Source: Phycisphaerales bacterium (GTDB taxonomy: Bacteria > Planctomycetota > Phycisphaerae > Phycisphaerales > UBA1924). Taken from it: a DNA stretch of 64,000 nt. Below are positions 490-59,377 of this stretch, piece by piece. A program made the position numbers and the translations under genes. Position 1 is the stretch's first letter. Each line of letters begins with the position of its first letter. The notes beneath the pieces were generated by a model, which saw nothing but the letters and a program-made list of their open reading frames with translations, was not told the origin of the DNA and ran no database searches. The DNA lies in the NCBI GenBank assembly GCA_017642965.1, contig JAEPOJ010000004.1, positions 62,001 to 126,000 on the forward strand. Direction: 5' to 3'.

Positions 490-1998
<1,509 letters not shown>

Positions 1999-1999
1999 C

Positions 2000-2974: not shown

Positions 2975-2976
2975 GC

Positions 2977-3462: not shown

Positions 3463-3573
3463 CCGTGACCCTCACTGTCAGAAACGCCCGGGGGACTCCG
3501 TTCCCCGTCCCGGCGTTGAGTGAGTTATCGGCCTGTGGCGCGGATTTCTCCACACTGTGCGCAAAAAACACGC

Positions 3574-40150: not shown

Positions 40151-40199
40151 GATCATCTCAGAGTTCTACGTGATGGACCGTTGCGGTAATCAATCCGAA

Positions 40200-40550
40200 T
40201 CAGGGCCCCTCGCCCTTGCGCAGAGGGACCTCAGCGAGCGAGGGCGTGCCCAGTTCATCCAAGTCCACCCCCCGCCCGTCCAGGATCGCGTCGTAGTTCG
40301 CGAGCGTCTCTTCGAATCCAAGCAGGATGTCGGACTTCTCACCCGTCCGCGTGCGGTTGGCCTCGGCGACCTGAGCCGCCAGCGCCTGACGCATCGAGAT
40401 CAGATCCTCCACCGGCATCTCTTCCAGCGCAGATCGCATATCGCGCTCCGTCACACCTGCTGAGCCTCCAGTGAACTTCAGGATGAGCACCCCCGCGATC
40501 AGCAGGAACACACACGCAACGATGACCTTGGTCGTCTGGGACTTATCCAT
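40200..40550 (-). CDS. Small single-pass membrane protein
   Basis: A 116-residue protein with a short cytoplasmic start, one membrane helix (about 9-26, VIVACVFLLIAGVLILKF) and an acidic external part. I do not recognise a family. GGAGAG precedes the start by nine bases. It lies between a pseudopilin gene and the phosphoesterase gene, 49-51 bases from each, so it belongs to the same run. Confidence 0.55.
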   Translation of the reverse strand: MDKSQTTKVIVACVFLLIAGVLILKFTGGSAGVTERDMRSALEEMPVEDLISMRQALAAQVAEANRTRTGEKSDILLGFEETLANYDAILDGRGVDLDELGTPSLAEVPLRKGEGP

Positions 40551-41582: not shown

Positions 41583-42710
41583 TCACGGGCAGCCCGTGTT
41601 GAACCCCTGGAGGAAGATGGAGACATCGAAGAAGTTCAGCAGGCCATCGCCGTTGAAGTCAACATCGATCGGGTTGTCGACAACAATGCGGATCGCGTTC
41701 TCGGAGTCACGCGAGCCGGCGCTGTTGTTGGCCACCGCCTTGACCCAGTAGATCCCGTTGGGGATGCCGGGGATCATGTAGTCTCCGGAGGCGCTGGTGG
41801 TGCTCATCTGACGCACGTCGGTGAACCCCGCATCCTTCGCGAGGACGACGGTGTAGTCGTCAGCACCAACCGCATCACCAACGCTGATGATCGGGCGGCC
41901 GGTCTCGTTGAAGACATCCGCGGCGATGAAGCTGTAGCCGGGCGCATTGCTCGCAGAGCCGGTGACTTCACCACTCACCTGGACCGAATCGATGGCCCAC
42001 CACCAGTCGTCCGTGCCGAGGTAGGAGAAACGGATCTCCATGCCGCTGGCCGCGGGGTTGTTGACAGCAAGACTCACGATCTCGTTGGGCGCGTCGTCCT
42101 TGTAGTTGGGGTCGGTGTCGTCCGAAACCCAGCGGAGGATCTCCTCCCACGAGCCGCCGTCGTAGCGAACCTCGAGCACGGCGGTCTGGCTGTCTTCTGG
42201 ACGCCAGGAAGAGAAGAACGAGATATTCACCGAGTTCGCGCTGACGTTGGCAAGATCGATGACGGGGGTCGTCATCATGGTGTCCATCTCGCCCTCGGAG
42301 TCCGGATCAAGCCCGTTTGCGTCGTAGTCGTCCCACTCATCTCCATCAGCGATCGCAACACCACCACGAGCCAGGCCGCCCTCACTGAGGAGCACGAAGT
42401 CGCTGCGGTCCTGGTCCCCGCAGGTCAGGTTCCACCACGCGCCATCGGCGATGTTCCAGCCCTGCCACTCGGTCACGCCGATGCCGGGCAGGTTGAAGTC
42501 GACGACCCAGCCGGCGGGAAAATCTGGGGTCCAGACGTTGTCCATGACGCCGCCTGTGCCGGTTTCAATGCCTTCCTCGACGTTCTGCCCGAGGGCGATG
42601 TCGTCGAAGTTCTCGAAGAACAGGACCTGCTGCGACTGCGCGCTGGCCGCGGCGGTCATGCCGCAGACCATGAGCAGCGAGCCCAGGATCTTTGCTTTGT
42701 TACGGTTCAT
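41583..42710 (-). CDS. Secreted protein with SSWRPED/WWWAID module and dockerin
   Basis: A 375-residue exported protein. A signal peptide (MNRNKAKILGSLLMVCGMTA) is followed by one copy of the ~200-residue module with SSWRPEDSQ and DDWWWAIDSVQVSG (about 30-235), a FN3-like segment, and a dockerin-like end (GLLNFFDVSIFLQGF) with a single complete repeat. No catalytic motif is seen, so it may be a binding or scaffold protein. An AAGGAG ribosome site lies before the start. It is in the minus-strand run with the phosphoesterase. Confidence 0.75.
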   Translation of the reverse strand: MNRNKAKILGSLLMVCGMTAAASAQSQQVLFFENFDDIALGQNVEEGIETGTGGVMDNVWTPDFPAGWVVDFNLPGIGVTEWQGWNIADGAWWNLTCGDQDRSDFVLLSEGGLARGGVAIADGDEWDDYDANGLDPDSEGEMDTMMTTPVIDLANVSANSVNISFFSSWRPEDSQTAVLEVRYDGGSWEEILRWVSDDTDPNYKDDAPNEIVSLAVNNPAASGMEIRFSYLGTDDWWWAIDSVQVSGEVTGSASNAPGYSFIAADVFNETGRPIISVGDAVGADDYTVVLAKDAGFTDVRQMSTTSASGDYMIPGIPNGIYWVKAVANNSAGSRDSENAIRIVVDNPIDVDFNGDGLLNFFDVSIFLQGFNTGCP

Positions 42711-42797: not shown

Positions 42798-44042
42798 TCA
42801 ACCCTGGTTGAAGAGCTCGAGGAAGCGGGAAACATCGAAGAAGTTGAGCGTGCCGTTGGGCTGCAGATCAACGAAGCAGTTGTTGTCCACACCGATGCGG
42901 ACCACGTTCTCGCTCGTGCCCAAGTCGTTGCGTGCAATGACCTTGACCCAGTAGGCGCCGGCGAGCAGATCGCCAGAGGCGGTCGAAAAGGACAGATCGC
43001 TCGTGGTTTCTGATACGACGACATCGTTGAAGTCCGCATCGTTCGCGAAGATGATGTCGTACTCGACCGCGTTGAGCGACTGCGACCAGCTCAGCGGGAC
43101 GACAGTCGTGTCGTTGAACTGCTCGATGCTGAGATCGAACGCGCTCGGGGGCTCCACTGGCTCACCGCCCTGGCCAGCAACCTGGATGTTGTCGACCGCC
43201 CACCACCAGTCGTTGGTCGCGTCGAACATCTCGAACTGAATCTCCATTGTTGTCGCCCCCATCGGGTTGCTGATGGCGAGCTCGACGGTCTCGTTGGTCG
43301 CGTCGGGCTTGAAGTCCGGCGAGGCCGAGTCGGACTCGAAGAGCAGGACCTGCGTGAACGGGCCGCCGTCGAAGGAGACGTTGACCGCCGCCTTCTGGGT
43401 GTCCTCGGGGCGCCAGCTCGAATCGAAGCGGACGATGATGGTGTTCTCGGTCACGCCATCAACATTGATCTCGGGGGAGGTGAAGCATGTGTTGAACACT
43501 CCGGTCGAGTCCGGGTCGATGCCGAACGGGTCGTAGTCATCCCACTCGTCCGGATCGGCGACCAGCACGCGGCCCTCGCCCTTGGTGAACTCCTCCCGGA
43601 GCTGCTGGTCCGCCGAGAGCCAGAAATCCTTGGCCGCAACGGTCCAGCCCTGCCACTCGGCACAACCAACCCCGGGCTGCGCCGCGGTCGAGCCACCAAC
43701 CCCGTCCCAGTCGTAACCGAACAGCTGCGTCCAGCCGTTATAGCTCCACGTCCCATCGAACGCGGTGTTCATGAAGTCACCACAATCGACCGTTGCAGGA
43801 ACCGGCGGCTCACCGCACTCGGTGTTGATGTTTGCACCGCCGCAGATGACGCCATCACCCAGGAACGCCTCAAGGACACAATCCACGGTGCCGGTCTGAA
43901 CACCCTCTTCCTGATTCACCGTCAGCGGGAACGACTCGAAGTCTTCCGAGAACAGGGTCACCAGCGGTTCGCCAGCGACAGCCGATCCCGCGGCAGCGCC
44001 CAGGAGCGCCAGCAGGACCGCTTGATTCGTCTTGATTGCCAT
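42798..44042 (-). CDS. Secreted protein with SSWRPED/WWWAVDN module and dockerin
   Basis: A 414-residue exported protein, first of the seven-gene minus-strand run. After a signal peptide (MAIKTNQAVLLALLGAAAGS) it has one module copy with SSWRPEDTQ and WWWAVDNIQVAG (about 30-280), then a FN3-like segment (LSIEQFNDTTVVPLSWSQ) and a dockerin-like end (LNFFDVSRFLELF). Four cysteines in the N-terminal part may form disulfides. The frame opens at 44129, but the start at 44042 begins the signal peptide and has a GGAG site. No enzymatic motif is visible. Confidence 0.75.
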   Translation of the reverse strand: MAIKTNQAVLLALLGAAAGSAVAGEPLVTLFSEDFESFPLTVNQEEGVQTGTVDCVLEAFLGDGVICGGANINTECGEPPVPATVDCGDFMNTAFDGTWSYNGWTQLFGYDWDGVGGSTAAQPGVGCAEWQGWTVAAKDFWLSADQQLREEFTKGEGRVLVADPDEWDDYDPFGIDPDSTGVFNTCFTSPEINVDGVTENTIIVRFDSSWRPEDTQKAAVNVSFDGGPFTQVLLFESDSASPDFKPDATNETVELAISNPMGATTMEIQFEMFDATNDWWWAVDNIQVAGQGGEPVEPPSAFDLSIEQFNDTTVVPLSWSQSLNAVEYDIIFANDADFNDVVVSETTSDLSFSTASGDLLAGAYWVKVIARNDLGTSENVVRIGVDNNCFVDLQPNGTLNFFDVSRFLELFNQG

Positions 44043-44491: not shown

Positions 44492-46369
44492 ATGAATCAT
44501 CTTCATAATGTGATAACAATCATATTCTGCTCATTCGCCGCCTCAGCGGCAAACGCGCACCCCGCAACAGCGCACAACAATGATCGCTTCGTATTCGGCG
44601 CAGAGTTCGATCGCGATCACGTGCACACAGACTCCGTGCACGCCGTGAGCGGCCACCATCTCCGCACCATGGGCACCAGCTCAATCGCGACCGATGAGCT
44701 CGGTGAATCACTCGAGCTCCACGGCCCCGGGCTGGACGGCCAGGGAGCGTACGTTCTCATTGCCGATTCGGTTGACCAGTTTGGTGACATGCCAGCTCGC
44801 GAGCTGACCGTAACGTCGTGGGTCCGCATCGACGAGCCGACCCGCTGGGGAGGGATCCTCTCCGCGGTCAGCGACAACGGGGATCGCGAGAAGGGATGGG
44901 TCCTTGGCTACGACAACGACTCATTCACTTTCGGTATATCCACAACCGGAGCGGACGATGGCGATGGAGCGATGACCTATCTCAACGGCAAGACCGCGTT
45001 CGAGAGCGGGCACTGGTACATGGTCACCGCAACCTTCGATGGAGAATCAGCCCGCCTCTACGTGAACGGCAAGCTCGATGCCCAAACGACCGCTCAGCAC
45101 GGCGAGATTCTTTACGAACAGCAGACCCCGATCGCGGTGGGCGCATACATCGACTCCAACGAGCTGCACACGATGCAAGGCCGGATCCGTAATGTCTACC
45201 TCTTCGACGAAGCCATCACACCCGAGCAGATTGCTATGGAGTACGAGCGGAATAGCGTCATCGCAGAACTCCAGCCAGAATCAGAGATCCAGCTGGAGTG
45301 GACTGTCGAGCCGTTTCTTTGCTACGCAACTCAGCGATCCATCTCCGTGTTGTGCGAACTGCCCGTACCCGCCGAGGTGAGGCTCAGGTACCGCCCAGCC
45401 GTCGGAGACGTACGCGAAATCCACTCCTCAGAGAAGAGCGGCATCCACACCATCCGCATCGATGGCCTCGAGCCCGGCGAGCCGTATTACTACGAGGTGA
45501 TCGCCGAGTCACCCGAGGGCACACGCGTGCAGACCGATCCCATGTCCTTTCAGACCGCAGTCGAGCGAGGCAAGGCGTTCACCTTCGTGATGATCGGCGA
45601 CACCCAGTCCAACCCCGACGTCGTCAAGCGCGTGTCAGACATTGCCTGGTCGCACCGCCCGAACTTCGTCTCTATCGCCGGCGATCTCGTCACCACCGGC
45701 ACGAACAAGTCACACTGGACCCACCACTTCTTCCCCAACATGCGCCCGCTCATTAACCGCGTGCCGATCTTCCCGATCCTGGGCAACCACGAGCAGAACG
45801 CCCGCCACTACTACGAGTACATGGACCTGCCCGACCCCGAGTACTACTACAGCTTCAGCTACGGCGACGCGGACTACTTCATGCTCGATTCCGAGAAGCC
45901 CATGGGCCCCGGTTCCGAGCAGTACCTCTGGCTTGAGGACAAGCTCGCCAGCTCCGACGCACGCTGGAAGTTCGTTGTCCACCACCGCCCCCCGTACAGC
46001 TCAGACGAAAACGACCACGGCAACTCATGGCTCGGCCCCACCACGCTCGGCGATCAGAATCCGCGTCAGATGGTGCCGCTCTACGAAAAGTACGGCGTAG
46101 ACATCGTGTTTAACGGTCATGTCCATGTCTATGAGCGGACCTTTCCGCTGCGTGATGGCCAGGCCGTCGAGCACAACGGGGTGATCTACATGACCATCGG
46201 CGGGGGCGGCGGTGGCCTCGAAGACTTCACCCCATTTAACCCATGGTTCGGCAGCAAGAAGGTCAGCACGCACCACATCTGCTATGTCGAGATCGTCGGC
46301 GGGCATCTGCGCATGCAGGCCATCGACGACCAGGGACGCCTCTTCGACCAGATCGAGATCCGCAAGTAA
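44492..46369 (+). CDS. Secreted LamG and purple-acid-phosphatase-like phosphoesterase
   Basis: A 625-residue exported enzyme. Signal peptide (MNHLHNVITIIFCSFAASAA); LamG/concanavalin-like domain (about 65-250); PAP N-terminal fibronectin-like domain (about 262-350, YRPAVGDVREIHSS, GLEPGEPYYYEV); calcineurin-like catalytic domain (about 355-600) with IGDTQ, AGDLV, GNHEQN, VVHHRPPYS and GHVHVYER. The metal-ligand set is complete, so an active binuclear phosphatase is likely. The frame opens at 44255, but the Met at 44492 with GGAGAG starts the signal peptide. The LamG domain probably attaches it to a polymer. Confidence 0.85.
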   Translation: MNHLHNVITIIFCSFAASAANAHPATAHNNDRFVFGAEFDRDHVHTDSVHAVSGHHLRTMGTSSIATDELGESLELHGPGLDGQGAYVLIADSVDQFGDMPARELTVTSWVRIDEPTRWGGILSAVSDNGDREKGWVLGYDNDSFTFGISTTGADDGDGAMTYLNGKTAFESGHWYMVTATFDGESARLYVNGKLDAQTTAQHGEILYEQQTPIAVGAYIDSNELHTMQGRIRNVYLFDEAITPEQIAMEYERNSVIAELQPESEIQLEWTVEPFLCYATQRSISVLCELPVPAEVRLRYRPAVGDVREIHSSEKSGIHTIRIDGLEPGEPYYYEVIAESPEGTRVQTDPMSFQTAVERGKAFTFVMIGDTQSNPDVVKRVSDIAWSHRPNFVSIAGDLVTTGTNKSHWTHHFFPNMRPLINRVPIFPILGNHEQNARHYYEYMDLPDPEYYYSFSYGDADYFMLDSEKPMGPGSEQYLWLEDKLASSDARWKFVVHHRPPYSSDENDHGNSWLGPTTLGDQNPRQMVPLYEKYGVDIVFNGHVHVYERTFPLRDGQAVEHNGVIYMTIGGGGGGLEDFTPFNPWFGSKKVSTHHICYVEIVGGHLRMQAIDDQGRLFDQIEIRK

Positions 46370-46373: not shown

Positions 46374-47396
46374 TCACTCGCCCATCGCATCGCGGCATTC
46401 GTCGAACAGACGGTACTGATCCGTCGCGATCAGGTCGACGCCCGCTTCGAGCTGCGCTTGCCAGCGCACCCGGGCCGCCTCGATCGAGCCGGTGTTATAC
46501 CCGCCGCTGTACCCAAAGACCGCGCCGTCCGCCTTGGAGTGCCCGTTGATCGTGTAGAACCGGATGAAGTAACCCATCTCGTGCGCATGCTCGACGAGGG
46601 CGCGCAGCCGCTCGGCCTCCGCTGGCGTCCAATCGCCCGCACCGTTCGCTCCGCCGGCCTCGACGACGTGCCACGAGTTGTTCCACCAGCGGTGAAAGTT
46701 GTCCGCGGGTGTATCGATCATCTCGCTTGGTGGAAACTCAACGCGGGCGTGCCGCTTCTGCTCGGCGCTCATCCCGCTTGTATCCGGCCCGCTCGCACGG
46801 CGCCGCCCGAACGCAAGGATGGGCGCGCCCTGCTCCAGATCGTCGTGAAACACACGGCGCTGGTCGGGCGTCCCGGTCAGCAGAACCATAATCGGCCCGA
46901 CCTCAAGCGACCGACGCTCAGAAACAGACGCCGCACGCGGCGCAGTAGTCAGCCAGTCCTGATATCGCTGCAGCGTCCGGTGGATCGCCTCGATGTGCCC
47001 CGGCTCGTCGTCCTTGATGTCCAGATCCAGCACGATCATCGGCCAGCCATCACGCTCACCCGGATCGCTCTCCGCCCGCACAATCGATGCCTCCACATCC
47101 GCGCGCACCCGCTCGAAGAAGTGCTCCGCGAGCGAGGGCTCGCCGCCATCGAACGGGCCGTTGTGCGCCACGATCGAGGCTGGAATGCCATCGCCATCGT
47201 GATCCGCCCAGCACAGGTCCTGCTCGATGGAGATCGGGTACCCGGTCGCCAAAGCCCGGTCGATACGCTCCACCCACATCCCGGCGTATGGATAACAGTT
47301 GTGCGCGCTCAGCAACGAACGCTCGCCCGGCTCGTACCCACCGAGCACACTCGATGACACCGCTGAAAACACCATCCCGATCCAGATCCTGCGCAT
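46374..47396 (-). CDS. Secreted PI-PLC/GDPD-like phosphodiesterase
   Basis: A 340-residue exported TIM-barrel protein. A signal peptide is followed by LLSAHNCYPYAG, the characteristic first histidine region of PI-PLC-like proteins (compare SAHNSYP), then SIEQDLCW, IVAHNGPF and the later acidic strands (VLDLDIKD). Such enzymes hydrolyse phosphodiester bonds in lipid head groups, calcium-dependent in part of the family. Key catalytic residues other than the two His cannot be verified here. Start 47396 (ATG) with a GAGAGG site is preferred over an in-frame TTG at 47399. Confidence 0.68.
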   Translation of the reverse strand: MRRIWIGMVFSAVSSSVLGGYEPGERSLLSAHNCYPYAGMWVERIDRALATGYPISIEQDLCWADHDGDGIPASIVAHNGPFDGGEPSLAEHFFERVRADVEASIVRAESDPGERDGWPMIVLDLDIKDDEPGHIEAIHRTLQRYQDWLTTAPRAASVSERRSLEVGPIMVLLTGTPDQRRVFHDDLEQGAPILAFGRRRASGPDTSGMSAEQKRHARVEFPPSEMIDTPADNFHRWWNNSWHVVEAGGANGAGDWTPAEAERLRALVEHAHEMGYFIRFYTINGHSKADGAVFGYSGGYNTGSIEAARVRWQAQLEAGVDLIATDQYRLFDECRDAMGE

Positions 47397-47494
47397 CAAG
47401 GCCTCTCAATACAGTTCGTGTGAAGACTGCGCTCACGCCCGCTGGCGATCGCATGGGCAGGTACCATACACGATCTGAGCAAGGGAGCAAGCCG

Positions 47495-48823
47495 ATGCCG
47501 CGGATCACCGAGGGCGATCAGAACCTGAGCGTGGAACGAGCGCACTGGCAGAGCGCCTCGCCCACGAACCACACCCTCCATCGCGATACTGAGCTGTACT
47601 ACCACCAGGTCCTCTCGACACCATGCCTGGATCAGATCGTGCGGGCAGAAGGTCCGTACATCTACACCGTGTCCGAGCGCCGCCTTCTTGATTTCCACGG
47701 CAACTCGGTCCACCAGCTCGGATTTGGGCACCCGAATGTGATCCGCGCGATCGAGGAGCAGATGCGATCGCTCCCCTACTGCACCCGGCGCTACACAAAC
47801 GACTCCGCCGTTGAGCTCGCCGAGCGCCTTGTCGCCCACGCGCCCGGGGATCTGTGCGATCATGCGCGTGTCCTGCTCTGCCCCAGCGGTTCCGCGGCCG
47901 TCGGCATCGCGCTCAAAATCGCCCGGGCCTGCACCGGACGCCACAAGACCATCGCGTTCCACGACTCCTTCCACGGCGCCACGCTCGACGCCGCATCGCT
48001 GAGCGGCCAAAACCTCTTCCACCGCGGCATGGGCCCCATGATGCCGGGCGTCATGCACGCCCAACCACCCGCATACCCCCAATGCACCTCCTGTACGAAT
48101 GCTTGCTGCAGCAATACCTGCGCCGTGCCAATCGAAGAACTGCTGGACCAGCACGACGTCGCAGCGGTCATCGCCGAGCCCATCCGGGCGACAACCGTCC
48201 GCCTCGCCCCAATGTCCTACTGGAGGCGCATTCGCAAGGCCTGCGACGCGACCGGCACCCTGCTGATCTTCGACGAGATTCCAACCGGACTCGGGCGCTC
48301 GGGCACGCTCTGGGCCACAGAGCACACAGGCGTGACACCGGACCTGATGGTCATCGGCAAGGGGCTGGGCGGTGGGATCTTTCCGCAGGCAGCCGTTGTC
48401 GGTCGCTCAGAACTCAACGACACAGGCCCGACGCCCGTACGCGAGCTCGCGCTCGGCCACTACACGCACGAGAAGTCACCCGTCGGCGCCGCCGCGGCGA
48501 TCGCCACGCTGGACACGATCATCAGCGAGCGGCTCGTGCAGCGTTCCCACGAGCTCGGCAGGGCGTGGCGCAACCGCTACGCGGACGAGTTCAACTCGAT
48601 GCACTGCGTCCGTGATCTGCGCCAGGTCGGGCTTATGCTCGCGATCGAGTTGGAAGATGCAGACCACGCAGACCGCGCGATGTACGAATGCCTCCGCAAG
48701 GGCGTGAGCTACAAGGTCGGCGGCGGAAATACGCTCGTGCTCTTCCCGCCGATCAACATTGAGCAGCGACTGCTCGACGGCGCGACGCGGGTCATCCTCG
48801 ACGCGATCGTGGCGACCGCGTAG
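47495..48823 (+). CDS. PbfA-like class III PLP lyase (aminophosphonate pathway)
   Basis: A 442-residue fold-type I PLP enzyme. PLP-lysine K289 in VIGKGLGGGIFPQA, and LIFDEIPTGLG before it. PbfA-type enzymes convert (R)-2-amino-1-hydroxyethylphosphonate to phosphonoacetaldehyde and ammonia. I assign this subfamily from its overall pattern and its neighbours, a phosphonatase-like hydrolase, an FAD oxidoreductase and PhnCDE; general class III transaminase is the alternative. Unusual: a cluster of five cysteines at about residues 197-209 (CTSCTNACCSNTC), which could bind a metal. The start at 47495 with AAGGGAG is preferred over the open frame from 47087. Confidence 0.75.
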   Translation: MPRITEGDQNLSVERAHWQSASPTNHTLHRDTELYYHQVLSTPCLDQIVRAEGPYIYTVSERRLLDFHGNSVHQLGFGHPNVIRAIEEQMRSLPYCTRRYTNDSAVELAERLVAHAPGDLCDHARVLLCPSGSAAVGIALKIARACTGRHKTIAFHDSFHGATLDAASLSGQNLFHRGMGPMMPGVMHAQPPAYPQCTSCTNACCSNTCAVPIEELLDQHDVAAVIAEPIRATTVRLAPMSYWRRIRKACDATGTLLIFDEIPTGLGRSGTLWATEHTGVTPDLMVIGKGLGGGIFPQAAVVGRSELNDTGPTPVRELALGHYTHEKSPVGAAAAIATLDTIISERLVQRSHELGRAWRNRYADEFNSMHCVRDLRQVGLMLAIELEDADHADRAMYECLRKGVSYKVGGGNTLVLFPPINIEQRLLDGATRVILDAIVATA

Positions 48824-48956
48824 GCCTGCTGAACCAAGATTCACCCGATCTTTGCACGCCCTGAGACGCTCCACAGCATCGGCGTGGTATGGTAACTCCT
48901 GACATCGCACGCAGCCGAACACAAACGTTCTTTGCTCGGCGCCTCCCGAGAGATCT

Positions 48957-51467
48957 ATGCATCTACACATTCTGCACACGATCGGCGCCATCCTTATCGC
49001 TGGAACCACATCACACGCAGCAGACGGCTGGACACCCGCGGACCTCGCGGGCGATACACCCAGCGGCGTGCTCCGCTACCAGATCCTCGATGCCGACGGC
49101 AACCCGGCCCCCGCCAGACTGACTTTCATCGCGCCCGACGGCTCGCGCCCGCAGCTCTTCTCAAACGACCAAGCGCGCCCGGGAGACCTCGCGGTGCGCC
49201 GCAACGTGGTGTACACCCTGTCCGGGTCGGGCGCGATCACGGTGCCAGTGGGCACCTACACGGTTTGGGCATCGCGCGGGATGGAGTACGAGGTCGAATC
49301 GCGCACGATCGAGATCACGCCCTTCCATGAGGCCATCTGGACGCCGCGCCTCGAGCGGGAGCTGGACACCACCGGCTGGGTGAGCGGCGACTTCCACCTG
49401 CACACGCTCACGCACTCGGGGCATGGCGACTCCAACATGCCAGAGCGCGTGATCTCACTCATCGGCGAGGGTGTCGAGTTCGCGGTCGCCACAGACCACA
49501 ACCACAACACGGACTACGAGCCCACCATGCGCGACCTGGGCGTCCCCGAAGCCCTTCGGGCCGTGGTGGGCAACGAAGTCTCGACGCCAATCGGCCACTT
49601 CAACGCTTTCCCGCTCGATGCCGACGAGCCGATCATCGACCCCGAGATCCACGACGGCCACGAGCTCTTCAAGATCATCCGTGAGCAGAAGAACGACTTC
49701 GGGACGGTCCCGGTCGTGCAGGTCAACCACCCCCGCTGGGGCGGGATCGACTACTTCGGCAGCTTCGGGCTCGACCCCGTCACCGCGACGACAGACAACG
49801 AGAAGTTCTCCTACGACTTCGACTCGGTCGAGATCTTCAACGAGAACGAGGGCTGGGGCTACATCGACGCCGACGAAAGCGACCTGCCGCTCGGATCCGG
49901 TTCCTTCAGCGTTCTGCGCGACTGGTTCAACCTGCTCAACCGCGGGCACCGCATCGCGGCGGTCGGCAACTCGGACTCACACGACGTGGCCTCGGAGCTG
50001 GCCGGCTGGCCGCGCAACTACATCGCGAGCTCCACCGATGTACCGCACCTGATCGACCCCGCCGAGATCGCCGCCAACATCCGCGCAAAGCGTGTCTACA
50101 CCACCTACGGCCCGATCGTCGACTTCTCGGTCAACGGCGTCCCCATGGGCGGCGACACCAACACAACCCCCAACACCACGCACGACCGCGACGCCGGGTG
50201 GGTCGATGTCGCGATGCGCGTGCGCGTTCCCACCTGGATCGACTGCGATCGGGTCATGATTGTCGTCAATGGCGAGATCATGAAGACGATCGACGTGAGC
50301 GATCAGCACGGCGTGCTCCGCCTTGACACGGTCGAACGCCTCAAGCTCTCCGGGGACAGCTGGGTCTCGCTGCTGGTCGAGGGCGACGACCCGCTCGACC
50401 CGATCGTCCACACCCAGGGACGCCCAATCTACCCGTGGGCGGTCCTCAATCCGGTCTGGGTCGATGCGGACAACGATGGACGCTGGACCGCGCCAGTCGA
50501 GCAGGCCAGGATCGCATTGCGTCAGAACCGGCCCGAACAGATTCGTGAAGGACTCATCAACGCCCCCGCCAGCGCGTGGGAGTGCACGCTGATCGCCGCG
50601 GCAGAGTCCGACACCTTCCACGCTGACCTCATCCGCGAGGCGCTCGGCCACGACAGCCGGCGCGTGCGCCTTGCCGCCACAGGTGCACTGCAGACGCAGC
50701 TTGCCCGGCTCCAGGAGCGAGGCAGCGATCTAGATGAATCCCAGCGGCGGATCTGGCTTGGTGCTCTGCGAGATGCGCGAGCACTCGCCGGCGCCAACGA
50801 GTACCTCCGCATGCGTCTGCTGCTTGCACTGAAGGCGGCCGGCGATATCGACGTCGAGCGTGACGCCCTCGCCATGCTCGCCGACGAGGAACAACGCGCC
50901 GCGCTGCGCAACGGCTTCGACAAAATGCTCTCGCAGATCGTCACTGGCAGCTTCATCTCCAACTGGAGCATCGCCGGCTACTTCAACGCCCCGAGCTTCA
51001 GCACGCTCGAAGTCGCGATGACCCCCGCCGAGATCAACCCCCGCGCCGAGCAATACAGCGCGGGCAAGGACGGCGAACCGATCAAATGGGTGACGCACAA
51101 CGCAGACTCCGAGGGCTATGTGGATCTTGAGGCGTTCAGCCGTGACGCGTCTCCGGACAACGCGATCGCGACCGCTCGCATCTGGTTTGTGTCTGATGGA
51201 TCGGAGATCGCCTATACCTTCGGGGCGGACGACGCATCGCGCGTCATGCTCAACAGCGAGATACTGTACGAAGACTTCGACGATCACAGCGCCAACCCGC
51301 TCCAGCAGGTCGGCATGATGAAACCCAGGGAAGGCGTAAACCTCCTGACAGTCAGTGTCGAGAACGGCACTGGCGGCTACGGCTTCTATCTCCGCATCTT
51401 CGACGAAGAGGTCGTCGAGTCGATCTCCACCACCCCACCGGAAACCCTCTCCGAAAGGTCACGATGA
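48957..51467 (+). CDS. CehA/McbA family PHP-type metallohydrolase
   Basis: An 836-residue exported protein. A signal peptide (MHLHILHTIGAILIAGTTSH) is followed by a beta domain and a PHP-type metallohydrolase domain with GDFHLHTLTHSGHG, VEFAVATDHNHN, VGNEVSTPIGHFNAF and VGNSDSHDV. A helical segment and a C-terminal beta domain (FGADDASRVMLNSE, like carbohydrate-binding modules) complete it. CehA/McbA enzymes hydrolyse carbamate esters such as carbaryl; PHP domains in general cleave phosphoesters. Its last four bases overlap the next gene (ATGA). In this operon it may act on a phosphonate ester, but that is inference. Confidence 0.8.
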   Translation: MHLHILHTIGAILIAGTTSHAADGWTPADLAGDTPSGVLRYQILDADGNPAPARLTFIAPDGSRPQLFSNDQARPGDLAVRRNVVYTLSGSGAITVPVGTYTVWASRGMEYEVESRTIEITPFHEAIWTPRLERELDTTGWVSGDFHLHTLTHSGHGDSNMPERVISLIGEGVEFAVATDHNHNTDYEPTMRDLGVPEALRAVVGNEVSTPIGHFNAFPLDADEPIIDPEIHDGHELFKIIREQKNDFGTVPVVQVNHPRWGGIDYFGSFGLDPVTATTDNEKFSYDFDSVEIFNENEGWGYIDADESDLPLGSGSFSVLRDWFNLLNRGHRIAAVGNSDSHDVASELAGWPRNYIASSTDVPHLIDPAEIAANIRAKRVYTTYGPIVDFSVNGVPMGGDTNTTPNTTHDRDAGWVDVAMRVRVPTWIDCDRVMIVVNGEIMKTIDVSDQHGVLRLDTVERLKLSGDSWVSLLVEGDDPLDPIVHTQGRPIYPWAVLNPVWVDADNDGRWTAPVEQARIALRQNRPEQIREGLINAPASAWECTLIAAAESDTFHADLIREALGHDSRRVRLAATGALQTQLARLQERGSDLDESQRRIWLGALRDARALAGANEYLRMRLLLALKAAGDIDVERDALAMLADEEQRAALRNGFDKMLSQIVTGSFISNWSIAGYFNAPSFSTLEVAMTPAEINPRAEQYSAGKDGEPIKWVTHNADSEGYVDLEAFSRDASPDNAIATARIWFVSDGSEIAYTFGADDASRVMLNSEILYEDFDDHSANPLQQVGMMKPREGVNLLTVSVENGTGGYGFYLRIFDEEVVESISTTPPETLSERSR

Positions 51468-52162
51468 GCAACATCCAACTCGTCATATTCGATATCGCGG
51501 GCACCAGCGTCAAGGATATCGGCTTCGTCGAGCACGCCTTCCTGAGCGTCTCCGACCGTCACGGGCTGGGCCTCGACGCCGCGTGGATCAAGCCCCGCAT
51601 GGGCGTCCACAAGCTCGCGGTGATGCGTGAAGCGCTCGATCACGCCGGCAAGCTCGACACCATCACGCCCGAGCAGCTATCCAGCGAGTTCGAGGACGCC
51701 ATCGACGAGCAGGTCCGGGCGGGCAGCGCCCCCGCGCTGCCCGGCTTCATCGAGCTCTTCAACGATCTCAACCAGGCCGGCGTGAAGGTCGCCTTTACCA
51801 CCGGCTTCTCCCGCAAAACCGCTGAAGCCGTGCTCAACGGAGCCGGCATCGACTACGAGACACTCGTCGCATCCGATGAGGTCGACAACGGACGCCCGGC
51901 GCCGGACATCGTGCTAGAGGCCATGCGTCGCGCAGGCATCAATGACCCCGCGCACGTCGCCGTCGTCGGCGATACCCCCAGCGATCTCGGCAGCGGCATC
52001 AGCGCCAATACCGCGCTGATCATCGGCGTCGGCCACGGCACCCACGCCCTGAGCGATCTCGAGGACCACCCCCACACCCACCTCGCCGCAGACATGAACG
52101 CACTCCGCGATATCCTCGCCCCCCACACCGGCATCCCAACCCACGAGCACGCCCATGGCTGA
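51464..52162 (+). CDS. Phosphonatase-like HAD hydrolase (PhnX-like)
   Basis: A 232-residue HAD hydrolase of the TIGR03351 type as I recall it. Motif I is FDIAGTSVK: nucleophile D10 with Ala at D+2, the phosphonatase arrangement instead of the DxD of ordinary HAD phosphatases. The cap has RMGVHKLAVM with K50 aligned to the Schiff-base lysine of PhnX (MGLLK in Bacillus). Motif III region (DNGRPAPDIVLEAM) and motif IV (VVGDTPSD) are present. It should cleave phosphonoacetaldehyde to acetaldehyde and phosphate. It overlaps the PHP hydrolase by four bases and the oxidoreductase by eight. Confidence 0.85.
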   Translation: MSNIQLVIFDIAGTSVKDIGFVEHAFLSVSDRHGLGLDAAWIKPRMGVHKLAVMREALDHAGKLDTITPEQLSSEFEDAIDEQVRAGSAPALPGFIELFNDLNQAGVKVAFTTGFSRKTAEAVLNGAGIDYETLVASDEVDNGRPAPDIVLEAMRRAGINDPAHVAVVGDTPSDLGSGISANTALIIGVGHGTHALSDLEDHPHTHLAADMNALRDILAPHTGIPTHEHAHG

Positions 52163-53327
52163 TTCGGACGTCCTGATCGTCGGTGCCGGCATCGTCGGTC
52201 TCGCGACCGCCATCGCCGCGCACCGCTGCGGGCATCGCGTGACGATCGTCGATCGCCACCACACCCCGATCGGTGCCTCGATCCGAAACTTCGGCATGAT
52301 CTGGCCCATCGGCCAACCAAGTGGGCCGCTTCTCGACCTCGCGATGCGCAGCCGCACTATCTGGCTCGAACTCGCCAATCAGGCGGGCTTCTTCTGCGAA
52401 CAGTCCGGCTCCATGCACCTCGCCTACCGCGAGGACGAACTGCGGGTTCTCGAAGAGTTCATCGCCACCGAGGGCGAAGAGCGCCGCGCCCAGCTCCTCT
52501 CACCCGAGGACGTCCGCACGCAGACGCCCGGGGTCAACCCCGTCAGCCTCCTCGGCGGGATGTACTCGCCCCTCGAGCTCAACGTCGAGTCACGCACCGC
52601 AATACAGAAGATCTGGGATTGGATCGCCGCCCAGCCCGGCATCGAGCTGATCAGCGGCTTCGAGGCGGCGCACATCGCGCCAAACCGCGTCGAATCGAGC
52701 GACGGGCGAGTGCGAGAGGGCGACCACATATACCTGACCACCGGCAGCGACGGAGTCACGCACTACCCCGACTGCTTCCCGAGCGACGCCTTCACACCCT
52801 GCAAGCTCCAGATGATGCGCACCATCCCACAGCCCGGTGGCTGGAAGATGGGCACCCACGTCGCCGGCGGCTGGACACTCCGCCACTACGACGCTTTCGC
52901 CGATTGCCCGTCCCTGCCACAGCTCAAAGAACGCATCAGCCGCGAGCTGCCCGAGTTCGACATACACGGCATCCACATCATGCTCTCGCAGCACTCCGCG
53001 GGTGACCTGGTGATCGGCGACTCGCACGTCTACGGCGACGCCATCACCCCGTTCGATGACGACCGCATCAATCACCTGATCCTCAAGCACGCCAAGCAAC
53101 TCGTCGATGCCCCCAGCTGGGAGATCGACAAGCGCTGGCACGGTATCTACCTGAAACGCACCGACGGTCGCTCGCTATTCGTCGATCAGCCCGAACCGGG
53201 CGTCACGATCATTAACGCGATGGGCGGCGCGGGCATGACGCTTTCCTTTGGCGTCGCCGACCTCGTGATCCGCGACCCGGACACCGCGATCGCCAACTTC
53301 GGCTCACGCATCACACAAAGCGTTTAA
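52155..53327 (+). CDS. FAD-dependent oxidoreductase of the TIGR03364 type
   Basis: A 390-residue DAO-fold oxidoreductase. The FAD-binding strand is VLIVGAGIVGLATAIAAH (GxGxxG) at the N-terminus and the C-terminal GxxG region is INAMGGAGMTLSFG. TIGR03364 enzymes accompany phosphonate genes, and characterised relatives (PbfC/PbfD) oxidise N-methylated aminoethylphosphonates; I state that from memory of the literature. It is the fourth gene of the operon, overlapping the hydrolase by eight bases. Its last 17 bases overlap the convergent phnE. Confidence 0.82.
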   Translation: MADSDVLIVGAGIVGLATAIAAHRCGHRVTIVDRHHTPIGASIRNFGMIWPIGQPSGPLLDLAMRSRTIWLELANQAGFFCEQSGSMHLAYREDELRVLEEFIATEGEERRAQLLSPEDVRTQTPGVNPVSLLGGMYSPLELNVESRTAIQKIWDWIAAQPGIELISGFEAAHIAPNRVESSDGRVREGDHIYLTTGSDGVTHYPDCFPSDAFTPCKLQMMRTIPQPGGWKMGTHVAGGWTLRHYDAFADCPSLPQLKERISRELPEFDIHGIHIMLSQHSAGDLVIGDSHVYGDAITPFDDDRINHLILKHAKQLVDAPSWEIDKRWHGIYLKRTDGRSLFVDQPEPGVTIINAMGGAGMTLSFGVADLVIRDPDTAIANFGSRITQSV

Positions 53328-54528
53328 CGATCCACGAGCACCCGAAGTCGATGATCGAGACCAGGATGATGATGATCAGCATGATCGTCGCCACCTCCTG
53401 AAACTGATACGACTTGAGCTTCGCGTCGATCAGGAACCCGACCCCGCCAGCGCCAACAAGCCCCAGCACGGACGCCGAGCGCACGTTGCTCTCGAACCGC
53501 AGCAGCGTCTGCGAGATCACGATCGGGAAGACCTGCGGCAGCACCGCGAACGAGATCACGTGCGGCGAGGGCGCCCCGCTCGCCAGCACGCCCTCCACCT
53601 CACCCCGGCCGATCGTGTCCAATGCGTCTGCGAAGACCTTGCCGAGCACACCGAACGTGTGCACCGCCAGCGCCAGCACGCCGGCGAACGGCCCCAACCC
53701 AATCACCGCGACAAAGATCAGCGCCAGCACAAACTCGTTGAACCCGCGGCACGCATCGAACCCACGTCGGGTCAGAAAAGCCCCGAGCCGGCGCCCAGCC
53801 CGGTGCCAGATCGAGCTCCCCGTGCTCATGATCTCCAGCGATCGCTGCGACGCGATGAGCGAAATGGGCAACGCCGTGACAAACGCAAGCAAAGTCCCCC
53901 AGATCGCGATCGCGATCGTTTCAAGCGTGTATTCCATGTACAGCTCGATGGACTCACGCCCGGTCTCGAGCGGGAAGAAGCCGCCCTTTCGCTCCTGCTC
54001 CGCCCGCCTCGCCGAGCGCATCACGCGTCGCTCCCACTCCTCCTCCGTCAGCGCCGATCGCAGCTGCTCGTACCGCGTCTCCACATGCTGCTCGAACGCA
54101 TCTGGCCTCGGGTCCGTGCGCGTAAGCCCAAGCTCGCCCAGCACCTGCTTCTCCGCGTCCGATCGCAGGCTTAGGCGAGTCGTTCGGGCCGCTTGGTCGT
54201 ACACCCGCTCCCGCTCCTCTTCGCTCAGCGACCGCCCAAAGATGTACTCCACCGCCTGATCACGGTTGTTGATCAGCGTAACCGGGCTCAGCTCGCTCTT
54301 GTGCGCAGACCATGTCAGTGCCGAGAGGATCAGCAGCGGTGCCGCAAACCGTGTAGCCGTGAAGACCGCCGCGACCCCCGCAACAAGCGATGCCAGCGTG
54401 GTCGCGTTCGCGATATGCATCGAGAAGACCGTATGAAGCACGACGGTCATGCCGAGCAGAATCACCAGCGGGATGGCGAAACGCCAGATCGGCATCGGGC
54501 GTTTCTCAGGTGATGTTTCAGCCACCAT
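53311..54528 (-). CDS. phnE: Phosphonate ABC transporter permease PhnE with large N-terminal insertion
   Basis: A 405-residue permease of the PhnCDE phosphonate importer. The last part (about 230-400) is a standard inner-membrane permease with the EAA-like loop (GEVEGVLASGAPSPHVISFAVLPQ) and helices. The N-terminal 210 residues are unusual: two or three helices around the first 90 residues, then about 100 residues of charged soluble sequence (NNRDQAVEYIFGRSLSEEER to QERKGGFFPLE). Typical PhnE is about 260-280 residues. The Met at 54528 is preferred over the frame start at 54612 and overlaps phnD by 11 bases. Confidence 0.85.
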   Translation of the reverse strand: MVAETSPEKRPMPIWRFAIPLVILLGMTVVLHTVFSMHIANATTLASLVAGVAAVFTATRFAAPLLILSALTWSAHKSELSPVTLINNRDQAVEYIFGRSLSEEERERVYDQAARTTRLSLRSDAEKQVLGELGLTRTDPRPDAFEQHVETRYEQLRSALTEEEWERRVMRSARRAEQERKGGFFPLETGRESIELYMEYTLETIAIAIWGTLLAFVTALPISLIASQRSLEIMSTGSSIWHRAGRRLGAFLTRRGFDACRGFNEFVLALIFVAVIGLGPFAGVLALAVHTFGVLGKVFADALDTIGRGEVEGVLASGAPSPHVISFAVLPQVFPIVISQTLLRFESNVRSASVLGLVGAGGVGFLIDAKLKSYQFQEVATIMLIIIILVSIIDFGCSWIVKRFV

Positions 54529-55438
54529 TCGCTTCTGCCATTTCCGCCTTGCGTTGCTCAAGAACGCGGATGATGTCGTACTCCTCATCCGTCGCGTGCT
54601 CGAAGCCACCACGCGCCATCTGCTCCATGGCCTCCTCGTCCGTGCTCAGCTTGACCAGCGCCTCCGCTACCTGACGATGAAACGACTCAGGCAGATCATC
54701 ACGCACCGCGATCACACCGGCGGGGATCATCGGGCTACGCCAGATCTCAACCAGATTCGAAGAGTCCAGCCCCGACTGCTCCATCGCACGCAGGTCCAGC
54801 GTGTTCGTCGCCGCGACCTCAAGGTCGCGTGCGAGCACGGCCCGCACCGCGTTCCCGTGCGTCCCCGTGTAGGACACCTCGCCGAAGTACTCGTCAGGGC
54901 TCATCCCCGTCTCCTCGATGATCCCGATCGACGGTACCAGGAACCCAGATGTCGAGTTGGGTGTCGTGAACCCAAAACGCCGCCCCTTCGCCTCCGCGAG
55001 CGTTGTGATCCCCGAGTCCCTGTGCGTCACGATGATCCCGTAGTACCCCGCGAGCCCATCGAGATTCAGTTCCTTGGCCACCGCCACCGCCCCCGCGATC
55101 CGGTTCGCCTCGACGTAGCTCTTGGGCCCGAAATACACCACGTCGACCTGCTTGTTCTTCATCGCGGTGATGATGCCCAGGTACTCGGTCGCGCTGAACG
55201 CCTCCACCGGTCGACCCAACTCGCTCTCGAGCTGTGTGATCACGGGCTTGAACCGCTCGACGATGTCCGTGCCACCCTCTGAGGGAATCAGCCCGAAGCG
55301 GATCGGACCATCATCCACTGCCTCGGCTTGCGAAGAATCCACCTGCGCCGACGAGCCCGCGTCCGAGCAGCCCGCAATCAGAACAGAGACGATCGCGGCG
55401 AGCGCAAAGTTACACCAGAGCTTGAGGGAGTCTTGCAT
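54518..55438 (-). CDS. phnD: Phosphonate-binding lipoprotein PhnD
   Basis: A 306-residue substrate-binding lipoprotein of a phosphonate importer. The signal peptide ends in lipobox LIAGC. The mature protein has the PhnD-type segments GLIPSEGGTDIVERFKPVI and AMKNKQVDVVYFGPKSY, and the family motif GRRFGFTTPNSTSGFLVPS. It captures aminophosphonates, probably 2-aminoethylphosphonate, at the outer face of the inner membrane. Its start overlaps the end of phnC by 29 bases and its end overlaps phnE, so the three are translated together. Confidence 0.9.
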   Translation of the reverse strand: MQDSLKLWCNFALAAIVSVLIAGCSDAGSSAQVDSSQAEAVDDGPIRFGLIPSEGGTDIVERFKPVITQLESELGRPVEAFSATEYLGIITAMKNKQVDVVYFGPKSYVEANRIAGAVAVAKELNLDGLAGYYGIIVTHRDSGITTLAEAKGRRFGFTTPNSTSGFLVPSIGIIEETGMSPDEYFGEVSYTGTHGNAVRAVLARDLEVAATNTLDLRAMEQSGLDSSNLVEIWRSPMIPAGVIAVRDDLPESFHRQVAEALVKLSTDEEAMEQMARGGFEHATDEEYDIIRVLEQRKAEMAEANGG

Positions 55439-56267
55439 CGTTCATGTTCCTCTGAAGTTCAATCACACCCCGCGCACGGGCATCAGTGCCCGACGGGTGC
55501 TGTGCTTCTTCAAGCTGATCGCCGTACAGCTTCTCGAGCAACTCGTCGCAGAGCCGATCCGAGGTCGTGTCCATGATCATCCGCCCCTCGCGCAACCCGA
55601 CGATCCGGTGCGCGAACCGCGTCGCCACGTCAACCTGGTGCAGATTCGTGATAACCGCGACACCGTGCGTCTCGTTGATCATCCGAAGGATGTTCATCAC
55701 CTGCTCGGCGCTGCGCGGATCCAGCGAAGCGATCGGCTCATCCGCGAGGATCACGTCCGCGCGTTGCGCCAGGAGCCGGGCGATCGCCACCCGCTGCTGC
55801 TGCCCGCCCGAGAGCTCCGTCGCACGCTTGGCGGCGAGGTGCTCGATCTCCACCTCCCGCAGGCACGCCATGGCCCAATCCCGCTCCTCGCGGCTGAACT
55901 GCCGCCAGATCGTTGGCACGATCGAGAGCCCCTTGCGCTGCGCAAGCGTGCCGACAAGCACGTTATCGAGCACGCTCAACCGAGAGACAAGATTGAACTG
56001 CTGGAAGACCATCCCCACACGCCGGCGCACCATACGCAGCTGCCGCCCCTGCGCGTGGGTAATGCACTGCCCATCAAGCTCTAGACGCCCCGCGGTTGGT
56101 TGAAGCAAGCGGTTGAAGAGACGCAGCATGGTGCTCTTGCCCGCACCCGATCGCCCGATGACCGCGACACGCTCACCCGGCGAAATCTCAAGGCTGACAT
56201 CGCAGAGCGCGACAAACTGACCCGCGTAGGTCATGCCGAGATGATCAGCTTGAAGTATCGGTTTCAC
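55410..56267 (-). CDS. phnC: Phosphonate ABC transporter ATPase PhnC
   Basis: A 285-residue ABC ATPase. Walker A GRSGAGKST, Q-loop (VFQQFNLVSRLSVLDNVLVG, typical PhnC spelling), signature LSGGQQQR, Walker B VILADEPIASLDP and the H-loop region (NLHQVDVATRFAHR) are visible. It powers PhnDE import. The C-terminus has about 30 residues of extra low-complexity sequence that overlaps phnD. It is the first gene of phnCDE on the minus strand. Confidence 0.93.
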   Translation of the reverse strand: MKPILQADHLGMTYAGQFVALCDVSLEISPGERVAVIGRSGAGKSTMLRLFNRLLQPTAGRLELDGQCITHAQGRQLRMVRRRVGMVFQQFNLVSRLSVLDNVLVGTLAQRKGLSIVPTIWRQFSREERDWAMACLREVEIEHLAAKRATELSGGQQQRVAIARLLAQRADVILADEPIASLDPRSAEQVMNILRMINETHGVAVITNLHQVDVATRFAHRIVGLREGRMIMDTTSDRLCDELLEKLYGDQLEEAQHPSGTDARARGVIELQRNMNDARLPQALV

Positions 56268-56409: not shown

Positions 56410-57315
56410 CTAGCGAAGCTCCTGCATCACCCGAATGGTGCGATCCGCGTAGTCCGTGAACACCGCATCCACACCATGCGTCTCCACGTATTCGCGCAGC
56501 TCTTCCGGCTCATCGCGAAAGGTGTACGGGACGACCCGCATGCCGAGCGCCTGCGCACGCCGGACCACCGACGGATCCGCATCGATGACCTTGCGGCTTG
56601 GGCCGATCCCCCACGCGTAGCCACCGATATCCTCAAGCGGGGGGACATCCTCCACCTTGCTGAACAACTGCAGGAGCTGATATCGCTCGCCGTACTCACC
56701 GTGCAGCGAAATCAGCGTCTCATCATCGAAGCACTGGATGATCACCCGCGACTCATCCCACCGATGCCTGAGGAGCGCATCGATCGTCATTCGCGTCACG
56801 TCCACGCCCTCACGCTTGTGAAAGATCGGCTGCTTGATCTCCGGCACAACCCAAACACTCCGCCCGGTCTGCTCGTTCAGCCGGCCAATCAGACTCAGGA
56901 ACTGATCAAACGTTGGGATATGAAACCCATCCCACGCGACATCTCCCCGCCCCGTGACCGTGAGACCGGCCAGCTCGGCGTAATCAAAGTCGATCGCATA
57001 CCAGTGCCCGTCCGCACGCCGCCGATCCGGGAACCGCGACTCCACGTCCGTCACCTTCTCGAGGTACACATCGTGGAAGCAGATCAGCACCCGGTCACGC
57101 GTCGAGACCACGTCCGGCTCGATCATGTCCGCACCCATGAAATACGCCGCCGCGTACGCCTCAAGCGTGTGCTCAGGCAGATACCCGCTGGCGCCACGAT
57201 GCGCGATCACACGCGTCTTGACCTCACGCCCCTGCTGCGAGCAGGCACCAAGCCCCATCAGAACCAGGGCGACGATGACGAACACCAGTTTCGTATGCAT
57301 CAAGTGTGTCCTCAT
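56410..57315 (-). CDS. GlpQ-like glycerophosphodiester phosphodiesterase lipoprotein
   Basis: A 301-residue exported protein. The N-terminus (MRTHLMHTKLVFVIVALVLM) leads into lipobox LGAC. The catalytic GDPD motifs are IAHRGASGYLPEHT, EPDVVSTRD and CFHDVYLEKVTD, giving the two catalytic His and the metal-binding Glu and Asp. It should split glycerophosphodiesters to glycerol-3-phosphate and an alcohol. Its first codon overlaps the stop of the next gene (ATGA); a second Met at 57300 is possible. It is 142 bases upstream of phnC on the plus-strand side of the transporter operon's start. Confidence 0.88.
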   Translation of the reverse strand: MRTHLMHTKLVFVIVALVLMGLGACSQQGREVKTRVIAHRGASGYLPEHTLEAYAAAYFMGADMIEPDVVSTRDRVLICFHDVYLEKVTDVESRFPDRRRADGHWYAIDFDYAELAGLTVTGRGDVAWDGFHIPTFDQFLSLIGRLNEQTGRSVWVVPEIKQPIFHKREGVDVTRMTIDALLRHRWDESRVIIQCFDDETLISLHGEYGERYQLLQLFSKVEDVPPLEDIGGYAWGIGPSRKVIDADPSVVRRAQALGMRVVPYTFRDEPEELREYVETHGVDAVFTDYADRTIRVMQELR

Positions 57316-59339: not shown

Positions 59340-59377
59340 GATAATCTCTCCTCGGTACACCCACGGGACGCACTGAA

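Follow-up and report, generated by a model that had tools for sequence, protein, structure and literature searches.

The closest described relative of the system studied here is the PbfD2 and PhnX pair of the planctomycete Mariniblastus fucicola. PbfD enzymes oxidise N-methyl-2-aminoethylphosphonate (N-methyl-AEP), and M. fucicola PbfD2 is reported to yield phosphonoacetaldehyde with kcat/KM values of 13,500 per M per s for N-methyl-AEP and 3,400 per M per s for AEP; PhnW is apparently absent from this organism and the combination of PbfD2 and PhnX was named a third pathway (PMC10590968). A second point of reference is PbfA of Vibrio splendidus, reported to eliminate ammonia from (R)-1-hydroxy-AEP ((R)-HAEP) to give phosphonoacetaldehyde and to be inactive toward AEP (PMC8154272). 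We analysed a stretch of 64,000 nucleotides from a Phycisphaerales bacterium (GCA_017642965.1, contig JAEPOJ010000004.1, positions 62,001 to 126,000; hereafter the window) in which a PbfA-like lyase, a secreted-looking metallohydrolase of the PHP superfamily, a PhnX-like HAD enzyme and a PbfD-like oxidase are encoded next to each other. The locus resembles that of M. fucicola in its planctomycete origin, its PbfD-type oxidase and phosphonatase, its lack of PhnW and its phosphonoacetaldehyde hub, but adds PbfA, the embedded PHP protein and PhnCDE, and has a HAD protein nearer to TIGR03351 than to TIGR01422. The PhnW-free core is already known (PMC10590968). What appears to be new is the arrangement, in which a PHP protein is included and PbfA accompanies PbfD in the absence of PhnW. 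The locus is likely a phosphorus-scavenging island for natural aminophosphonates, with a cytosolic phosphonoacetaldehyde core and a proposed extracytosolic ester-cleaving front end.

Among PHP proteins, the PhnPP type is linked to C-P lyase. PhnPP/Elen0235 shares with the window protein a tie to phosphonate use and has cyclic phosphodiesterase activity as cited in PMC11656708, but it acts on a cyclic phosphodiester, and the window genome has no PhnJ match. Signal-bearing PHP phosphodiesterases are represented by Sb-PDE, whose signal peptide was found experimentally (PMC5460133), and its near relative No-PDE, which binds three zinc ions (PMC11656708). Compared by motif, these enzymes and the window protein have in common the PHP fold, a signal peptide (found experimentally for Sb-PDE, predicted by eye for the window protein), equivalent metal-ligand motifs and an E-to-H spacing of 7. 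They differ in length: the window protein has 836 residues against 441 and is extended by additional regions at both termini. CehA/McbA hydrolases share the family NF038032 with the window protein, although the known members cleave pesticide carbamates, a context not seen in the window.

In nature, aminophosphonates frequently occur as constituents of lipids and glycans, for example in ceramide-AEP. The pathway articles consulted treat free AEP-type substrates (PMC8154272, PMC10590968, PMC12366243). Among the papers listed by literature searches, none, judged by title and the start of the abstract, describes an AEP-type cluster that encodes a secreted PHP hydrolase, and the main text of PMC10590968 contains no word starting with PHP, phosphatase or phospholip-.

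Organization of the locus

The four reading frames proposed in the initial annotation are all present as described on the + strand (Table 1). The last three genes overlap, the PHP stop and the HAD start sharing an ATGA (4 bases) and the HAD and FAD genes overlapping by 8 bases, while a gap of 133 bases separates the lyase gene from the PHP gene. The set faces phnCDE, as also described: phnE, phnD and phnC lie on the - strand and converge with the four-gene set, with a 17-base overlap between the FAD gene and phnE. PhnC and PhnD score above their NCBIfam cut-offs and PhnE 5.9 bits under. The contig from which the window was taken measures 146,670 bases and belongs to a 3.45-Mb draft genome that is 91.75% complete. 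No site matching at least 13 of 17 positions of a Pho-box consensus was found in the window.

Table 1. Features of the locus and its surroundings, with positions in the window and the basis of each assignment.
Feature	Position	Strand	Basis
Lyase, class III pyridoxal-phosphate (PLP) enzyme, PbfA-like	47495..48823	+	NF049939 522.3 bits (cut-off 525)
PHP-superfamily (CehA/McbA-type) metallohydrolase, Sec-like N-terminus	48957..51467	+	NF038032 153.1 bits (cut-off 80)
PhnX-like HAD, proposed phosphonoacetaldehyde hydrolase	51464..52162	+	TIGR03351 163 bits (cut-off 218.9), TIGR01422 89 bits (cut-off 220)
PbfD-like FAD oxidase	52155..53327	+	TIGR03364 414.9 bits (cut-off 285.1)
phnE, phosphonate ABC permease (possible alternative start 54528)	53311..54612	-	TIGR01097 210.8 bits (cut-off 216.7)
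phnD, phosphonate substrate-binding protein	54518..55438	-	TIGR03431 262.8 bits (cut-off 261.1)
phnC, phosphonate ABC ATPase	55410..56267	-	TIGR02315 299.7 bits (cut-off 266.1)
LamG + metallophosphoesterase, Sec-like N-terminus	44492..46369	+	PF13385 + PF00149 (scanned as 44255-46369)
Phospholipase C/glycerophosphodiester phosphodiesterase (PLC/GDPD)-like look (by eye), divergent from lyase gene	46374..47399	-	no Pfam/NCBIfam match
Glycerophosphodiester phosphodiesterase	56410..57315	-	PF03009 146.9 bits
Metallophosphoesterase + LamG	57312..59360	-	PF00149 and PF13385
Alkaline phosphatase	59378..60826	-	PF00245 220.9 bits
Type I phosphodiesterase + PA14	35326..36945	-	PF01663 and PF07691
Purple-acid-phosphatase-like metallophosphoesterase carrying ENFD region	36989..40156	-	PF16656, PF00149; ENFD profile 405 bits
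Secreted-looking protein with ENFD region	41583..42710	-	
Secreted-looking protein with ENFD region	42798..44042	-	
Pseudopilin-like protein	40602..41480	-	N_methyl
Small membrane protein	40200..40550	-	

Named comparison loci were the best 80 of 278 relatives, and the closest among these are from Phycisphaerales bacteria. The four-gene order is kept in L012 (UBA1910), with 80, 83 and 84% identity for the lyase, PHP and HAD proteins, respectively. The distribution of PbfD was surveyed in a census from which 14 of 16 Prochlorococcus loci were omitted as near-copies, leaving 102; the duplicate pairs L065/L070 and L067/L201 reduce these to the 100 distinct loci used for the census counts, to which the window does not belong. 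L161-L163 repeat L011, L010 and L012 and were not counted. In 73 of the 100 loci, the FAD gene has a HAD gene no more than 7 kb away. This frequency, together with the recurrence of the order in L012, indicates that the gene set goes beyond chance. The FAD gene of L012 (10001-11306) lies in two overlapping frames, representing either a sequencing error or a broken gene.

A proposed phosphonoacetaldehyde core

The oxidoreductase belongs to TIGR03364, as initially assigned, with a score above the cut-off. In a tree whose rows include no characterised PbfD and whose sole reference from a phnW-phnX operon is the Acinetobacter enzyme L214, taken as PbfD1-like, the window oxidase did not group with L214, which sits on a very long branch. 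Prochlorococcus contigs (L065, L070 and 14 other loci) also carry a HAD-PbfD pair; in several of them an ABC ATPase gene is located about 3 kb upstream of the pair, and phnCE- or phnCDE-like genes are present too in L070, L075 and L088.

The assignment of the first gene product as PbfA is upheld by both family models and phylogeny, although its score stays 2.7 bits short of the NCBI cut-off. Its best NCBIfam model is PbfA, followed by PRK06082 (466.8 bits), which also scores the PbfA of L094 highly, and then by models at 243.6 bits or less among the 25 matches shown. The initial annotation had named a better match to another class III subfamily as an objection to PbfA; none was found, because the PbfA model outscores all other NCBIfam models. 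In a 20-row tree the lyase is placed inside a 14-row PbfA clade (90/97), a 7-row subset of which has support of 98/98. Clade members include a Vibrio enzyme encoded between phnW and phnX, a Ruegeria enzyme whose gene adjoins phnA/phnY downstream of a PhnW gene, and a protein of Azospirillum B510 from an unannotated record. PbfA of L138 runs into a long upstream frame, and its later part alone entered the tree. Apart from L012, the nearest kin of the window lyase is PbfA of L094 (94/94). Of 90 columns that do not vary among eight reference PbfA rows, the lyase matches 80, and it retains 21 of 24 PbfA-specific columns, defined as invariant in the references and not seen in outgroup rows. Judged by these sequence features, the lyase most likely works like PbfA and would remove ammonia from (R)-HAEP. 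It shares its clade with the Vibrio operon enzyme and has the same kind of neighborhood as V. splendidus PbfA, but the PbfA genes tallied in the published survey belong to clusters of the phnWX and phnWAY types (PMC8154272), while the window is without phnW. Characterised class III enzymes are mostly aminotransferases (PMC8154272), and the lyase could accordingly be imagined as an AEP aminotransferase standing in for PhnW. We regard this as very unlikely given the grouping with PbfA, the inactivity toward AEP reported for the V. splendidus enzyme (PMC8154272) and the ability of PbfD to already handle AEP.

The HAD protein was initially described as phosphonatase-like. Its catalytic residues support this description, while its scores are below the cut-offs of both TIGR03351 and TIGR01422 (Table 1); two other PbfD-linked HAD proteins are also under the TIGR03351 cut-off (192.9 and 200 bits). 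We aligned 75 rows (74 of them differing), comprising 72 proteins of 191-329 residues from PbfD loci, which represent 72 of 74 cluster members, as well as the window protein, Vibrio PhnX and a Hymenobacter HAD. The nucleophile D10 (DxAGT) is found in 75/75 rows and the cap lysine K50 in 74/75. The cap lysine of phosphonatases forms a Schiff base. K50 faces a lysine of the PhnX chain 2iof, which we take to be Lys53, the residue on which the B. cereus enzyme forms its Schiff base, and an arginine occupies that place in 2ioh. All six best solved-structure matches are phosphonoacetaldehyde hydrolases. Alternatively, the HAD protein may be a phosphatase for another metabolite, with phosphate release from aminophosphonates carried out by an unseen enzyme, as its position below both phosphonatase family cut-offs would allow. 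The near-complete conservation of nucleophile and cap lysine, the structural matches and the lack of any other phosphonatase match in the genome make this improbable. Two points weigh against the core as assigned here, namely that the lyase and the HAD protein both fall below curated NCBIfam cut-offs and that the one exception to the cap lysine is the HAD of family member L095.

The reported lack of PhnW and classical PhnX in the window extends to the whole genome. The best PhnW match in the genome reaches 30.2 bits (cut-off 400.8), and the sole PhnX match (E ≤ 0.001) is the HAD protein described above with 84.8 bits against a cut-off of 220. Likewise, the best PhnA match in the genome is 28.6 bits (cut-off 407.55), PhnJ gave no genome match while an E. 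coli positive control was detected, and Phn-HD gave no genome match at E ≤ 1e-15. As the draft genome is 91.75% complete, these absences, including that of PhnW, are probable rather than proven.

The window's family mixes published pathway pieces. TIGR03364 is found in 16 of 163 genomes of the family, and all 16 neighborhoods were compared. PbfA is encoded in the same stretch as PbfD in six of these (window, L012/L163, L094, L154, L155 and L158). A tblastn search with PhnW of L094, covering stretches of 11 to 21 kb in 15 loci (with L010-L012 representing G490, G484 and G483) and the window, detected PhnW in L094 alone. L154, L155 and L158 also combine PbfA and PbfD with HAD or PhnX and lack a PhnW match within the stretch compared, although PhnW could be encoded elsewhere in these genomes given the stretch lengths. 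L156, L159 and L160 carry PhnA and PhnY. An HD-domain protein is located near PbfD in 34 of 100 distinct loci, L077 and L090 among them, and both members scanned matched TIGR03276 (phosphonate degradation HD-domain oxygenase). Phn-HD may be an alternative to PbfA for hydroxylated substrates. Strict exclusion between the two was considered and dropped: none of the five PbfA loci is among the 34 Phn-HD loci of 100, an outcome expected by chance in 12% of cases, and G475 contains both on different contigs.

Taken together, the route outlined in the initial annotation, from lyase or oxidoreductase to phosphonoacetaldehyde and from there to phosphate by the HAD enzyme, is the best reading of the families and catalytic residues. 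PhnCDE would import aminophosphonate into the cytosol, where the PbfA-like lyase would take ammonia off (R)-HAEP and the PbfD-like oxidase would oxidatively deaminate N-methyl-AEP and AEP, both giving phosphonoacetaldehyde. The PhnX-like HAD would then cut the C-P bond via a Lys50 Schiff base to release acetaldehyde and phosphate, and PhnW would be dispensable. Outside the cytosol, the PHP hydrolase, a predicted metal-dependent enzyme of phosphoester type, and a LamG-metallophosphoesterase encoded upstream would free aminophosphonate from esters such as phosphonolipids and glycans. Families, catalytic residues, gene order and recurrence are read from sequence; all reactions and export are inferred from them, and most of all what the PHP protein acts on.

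The PHP hydrolase

The PHP protein scores above the CehA_McbA cut-off and begins with a short hydrophobic segment that by eye resembles a Sec signal. In an alignment of 16 rows that includes the window protein, the motif residues H147, H181, E207, H214, H258, D340 and H342 are present in 16/16 and H149 in 15/16. These eight positions match by motif ligands listed for No-PDE; nine are listed there, and the motif I Asp is uncertain, with D158 as candidate. An AlphaFold2 model built from a two-row alignment (window and L012) had a mean pLDDT of 32.6 and was not used.

The initial annotation had set this gene outside any known route. It is not a single case: a homologue is present in a second, different aminophosphonate run. 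L094, from genome G347 of the same family, encodes a PHP protein with 45% identity as the first of a one-strand run of PHP, major facilitator superfamily (MFS), PhnA, PbfD, PhnY and PhnW genes. No gap in this run exceeds 67 bases, and PbfA is located about 11 kb away. PhnW, PhnA and PbfA of L094 score over their cut-offs, PhnY 15 bits under, and the MFS protein is without NCBIfam match. Within the genus, PbfA and PHP come and go together: the clusters of the window and L012 contain the two genes, whereas L010 and L011, examined as 21-kb loci that keep HAD-PbfD/phnEDC, have neither. The PHP hydrolase may thus be an overlooked first step of aminophosphonate use.

Several observations speak against a dedicated role. 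PHP homologues (E ≤ 1e-40) occur in 15 of 397 class genomes; because 12 of these 15 lack TIGR03364, the link between PHP and PbfD is not exclusive. The three class genomes with both have them in one cluster in two cases and megabases apart in G048. The PHP profile found none among the called genes of 20 further PbfD loci of the phylum (31 such genomes known), nor was PHP found in L154, L155 and L158. In addition, the best PHP tree and 200/200 bootstrap trees separate the two phosphonate-linked PHP lineages, although the tree is poorly resolved and no well-supported branch forces two origins. Finally, carbamates are the known substrates of CehA/McbA relatives, and the enzyme may therefore cleave something other than a P-O bond.

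It is quite possible that the PHP protein serves a phosphate-starvation island as a secreted phosphodiesterase of general use, or as another kind of hydrolase, is linked to the aminophosphonate genes by regulation alone and never meets a phosphonate. The region also encodes an alkaline phosphatase, a GDPD and several metallophosphoesterases, and most class PHP homologues come from genomes that lack PbfD, with different surroundings in the mapped cases. On the other side stand the overlap of the PHP stop with the HAD start, the homologue heading the L094 phosphonate run and the joint presence or joint absence of PbfA and PHP in the clusters of four genus members. A cut at a C-N or carbamate-type bond, for example in N-acyl or N-carbamoyl aminophosphonates, would agree with the NF038032 match. 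A protein reading by eye as a secreted amidohydrolase, with no NCBIfam match, is also encoded directly after PbfA in L136 (7957-9651, - strand), a locus from another class genome. We consider this kind of cleavage unlikely, since the other recurrent neighbors of PbfD are phosphoesterases and the characterised signal-bearing PHP enzyme found in the literature is a phosphodiesterase. We prefer the release of ester-bound aminophosphonate as the function of the PHP protein because other secreted phosphoesterases recur near PbfD.

Among the 80 named loci, the PHP profile matched L012 and, weakly, L027 (49.9 bits) and L032 (17.1 bits). The L027 match, a 1590-residue secreted-looking protein (399-5171, + strand) encoded upstream of MFS, HD, PbfD and PhnX-like genes, has no NCBIfam match at 1e-15 and was kept as a lead only. 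A PHP gene beside PbfA in L138 is of the HisJ type, a different PHP family, and was not counted. Novosphingobium sp. EMRT-2, the source strain of No-PDE, also has PbfD; no PHP gene is named within 18 kb of it in an incomplete gene table, and we treat the joint presence of No-PDE and PbfD as coincidence. A match in Novosphingobium MBES04 could not be tied to Sb-PDE.

Other predicted secreted phosphoesterases near PbfD

The secreted-looking LamG-metallophosphoesterase encoded upstream of the lyase gene is more widely tied to PbfD than the PHP protein. At E ≤ 1e-80, homologues are present in 20/46 PbfD-positive, 1/5 PbfA-only and 1/29 PbfD-negative genomes (Fisher p 1.3e-4), and within the family in 12/16 PbfD-positive versus 1/20 PbfD-negative genomes (Fisher p 1.6e-5). 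This threshold was picked after viewing the table; at the search threshold of 1e-40 the counts are 22/46, 1/5 and 2/29. The PbfD-positive sample represents 46 of 50 known genomes (G654, G775, G833 and G834 left out), the PbfA-only sample consists of five genomes with PbfA above 500 bits and no TIGR03364, and the 29 PbfD-negative genomes are a non-random set from earlier listings, all of the window's order and 20 of them from its family. Eleven of the 20 genomes (G000, G483, G484, G490, G046, G341, G452, G503, G815, G820 and G857) have the LamG-metallophosphoesterase within 20 kb of PbfD, the window's own genome being one of them, and the remaining nine do not; in one more genome, G006, it is near PbfA. 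The gene is absent from 20 stretches of G032, an uninformative control as this genome is without homologue at 1e-40.

In a raw count, which limits its weight, 36 of the 100 distinct PbfD loci either have a member of one of seven phosphoesterase- or sulfatase-type clusters within 7 kb or are one of the two PHP loci. The overlapping counts are seven each for metallophosphoesterase, type I phosphodiesterase, phosphocholine phospholipase C and sulfatase/phosphodiesterase, five for phosphoesterase and four each for metallophosphatase and sulfatase; classes were taken from scanned representatives, except for the sulfatase cluster (four loci), which was named by eye. In Hymenobacter, the PbfD and HAD genes adjoin alkaline-phosphatase-type, sulfatase-like and SusC/SusD genes. 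Phosphocholine-specific phospholipase C is found near PbfD in seven Bacteroidota loci (L033, L034, L048, L053, L058, L077 and L078), and the one scanned, from L048, scores 832.7 bits against TIGR03396. This proximity suggests phosphonolipids as a source.

Tentatively, and with considerable doubt, we propose that the secreted PHP protein is specialised on phosphonate esters and hydrolyses phosphonolipids or glycans to release aminoethylphosphonate or its hydroxy or N-methyl forms. Planctomycete aminophosphonate catabolism would then begin outside the cytosol, where interchangeable esterases of several folds (PHP, LamG-metallophosphoesterase, alkaline-phosphatase type and phospholipase C) would feed one phosphonoacetaldehyde core. 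If secreted phosphoesterases are operon-level partners of PbfA and PbfD, cells could draw phosphorus directly from bound phosphonates, and the set of lyase, oxidase and esterase genes would predict which bound phosphonates serve. The proposal also suggests candidate substrates for the CehA/McbA-type PHP branch and the TIGR03351-side HAD proteins.

Additional features of the region

The PLC/GDPD-like protein encoded between the LamG-metallophosphoesterase and the lyase has no Pfam match up to E 10 and a best solved-structure match at E 0.02; a 78% identical copy is found at the same place in L012. Farther upstream lies a secreted-looking family defined by an ENFD region, present in two separate proteins and as part of the purple-acid-phosphatase-like enzyme (Table 1). 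Among 15 PbfD loci of the family, 13 contain a match to its profile above 350 bits, although two of these provided seeds, and the matches in L010 and L011 may represent the form fused to the purple-acid-phosphatase-like enzyme. At the same threshold it was found in 0/3 PbfD loci of other class families, 0/20 class controls (nearly all from other families) and 0/20 phylum PbfD loci, while 20 spaced stretches of family member G032 gave weak matches only (at most 47 bits). Genes for a pseudopilin-like and a small membrane protein adjoin the ENFD genes. Pseudopilin-like proteins were also seen by eye near PbfD in L092, L094, L153-L155, L158 and L160 and may be common in such genomes.

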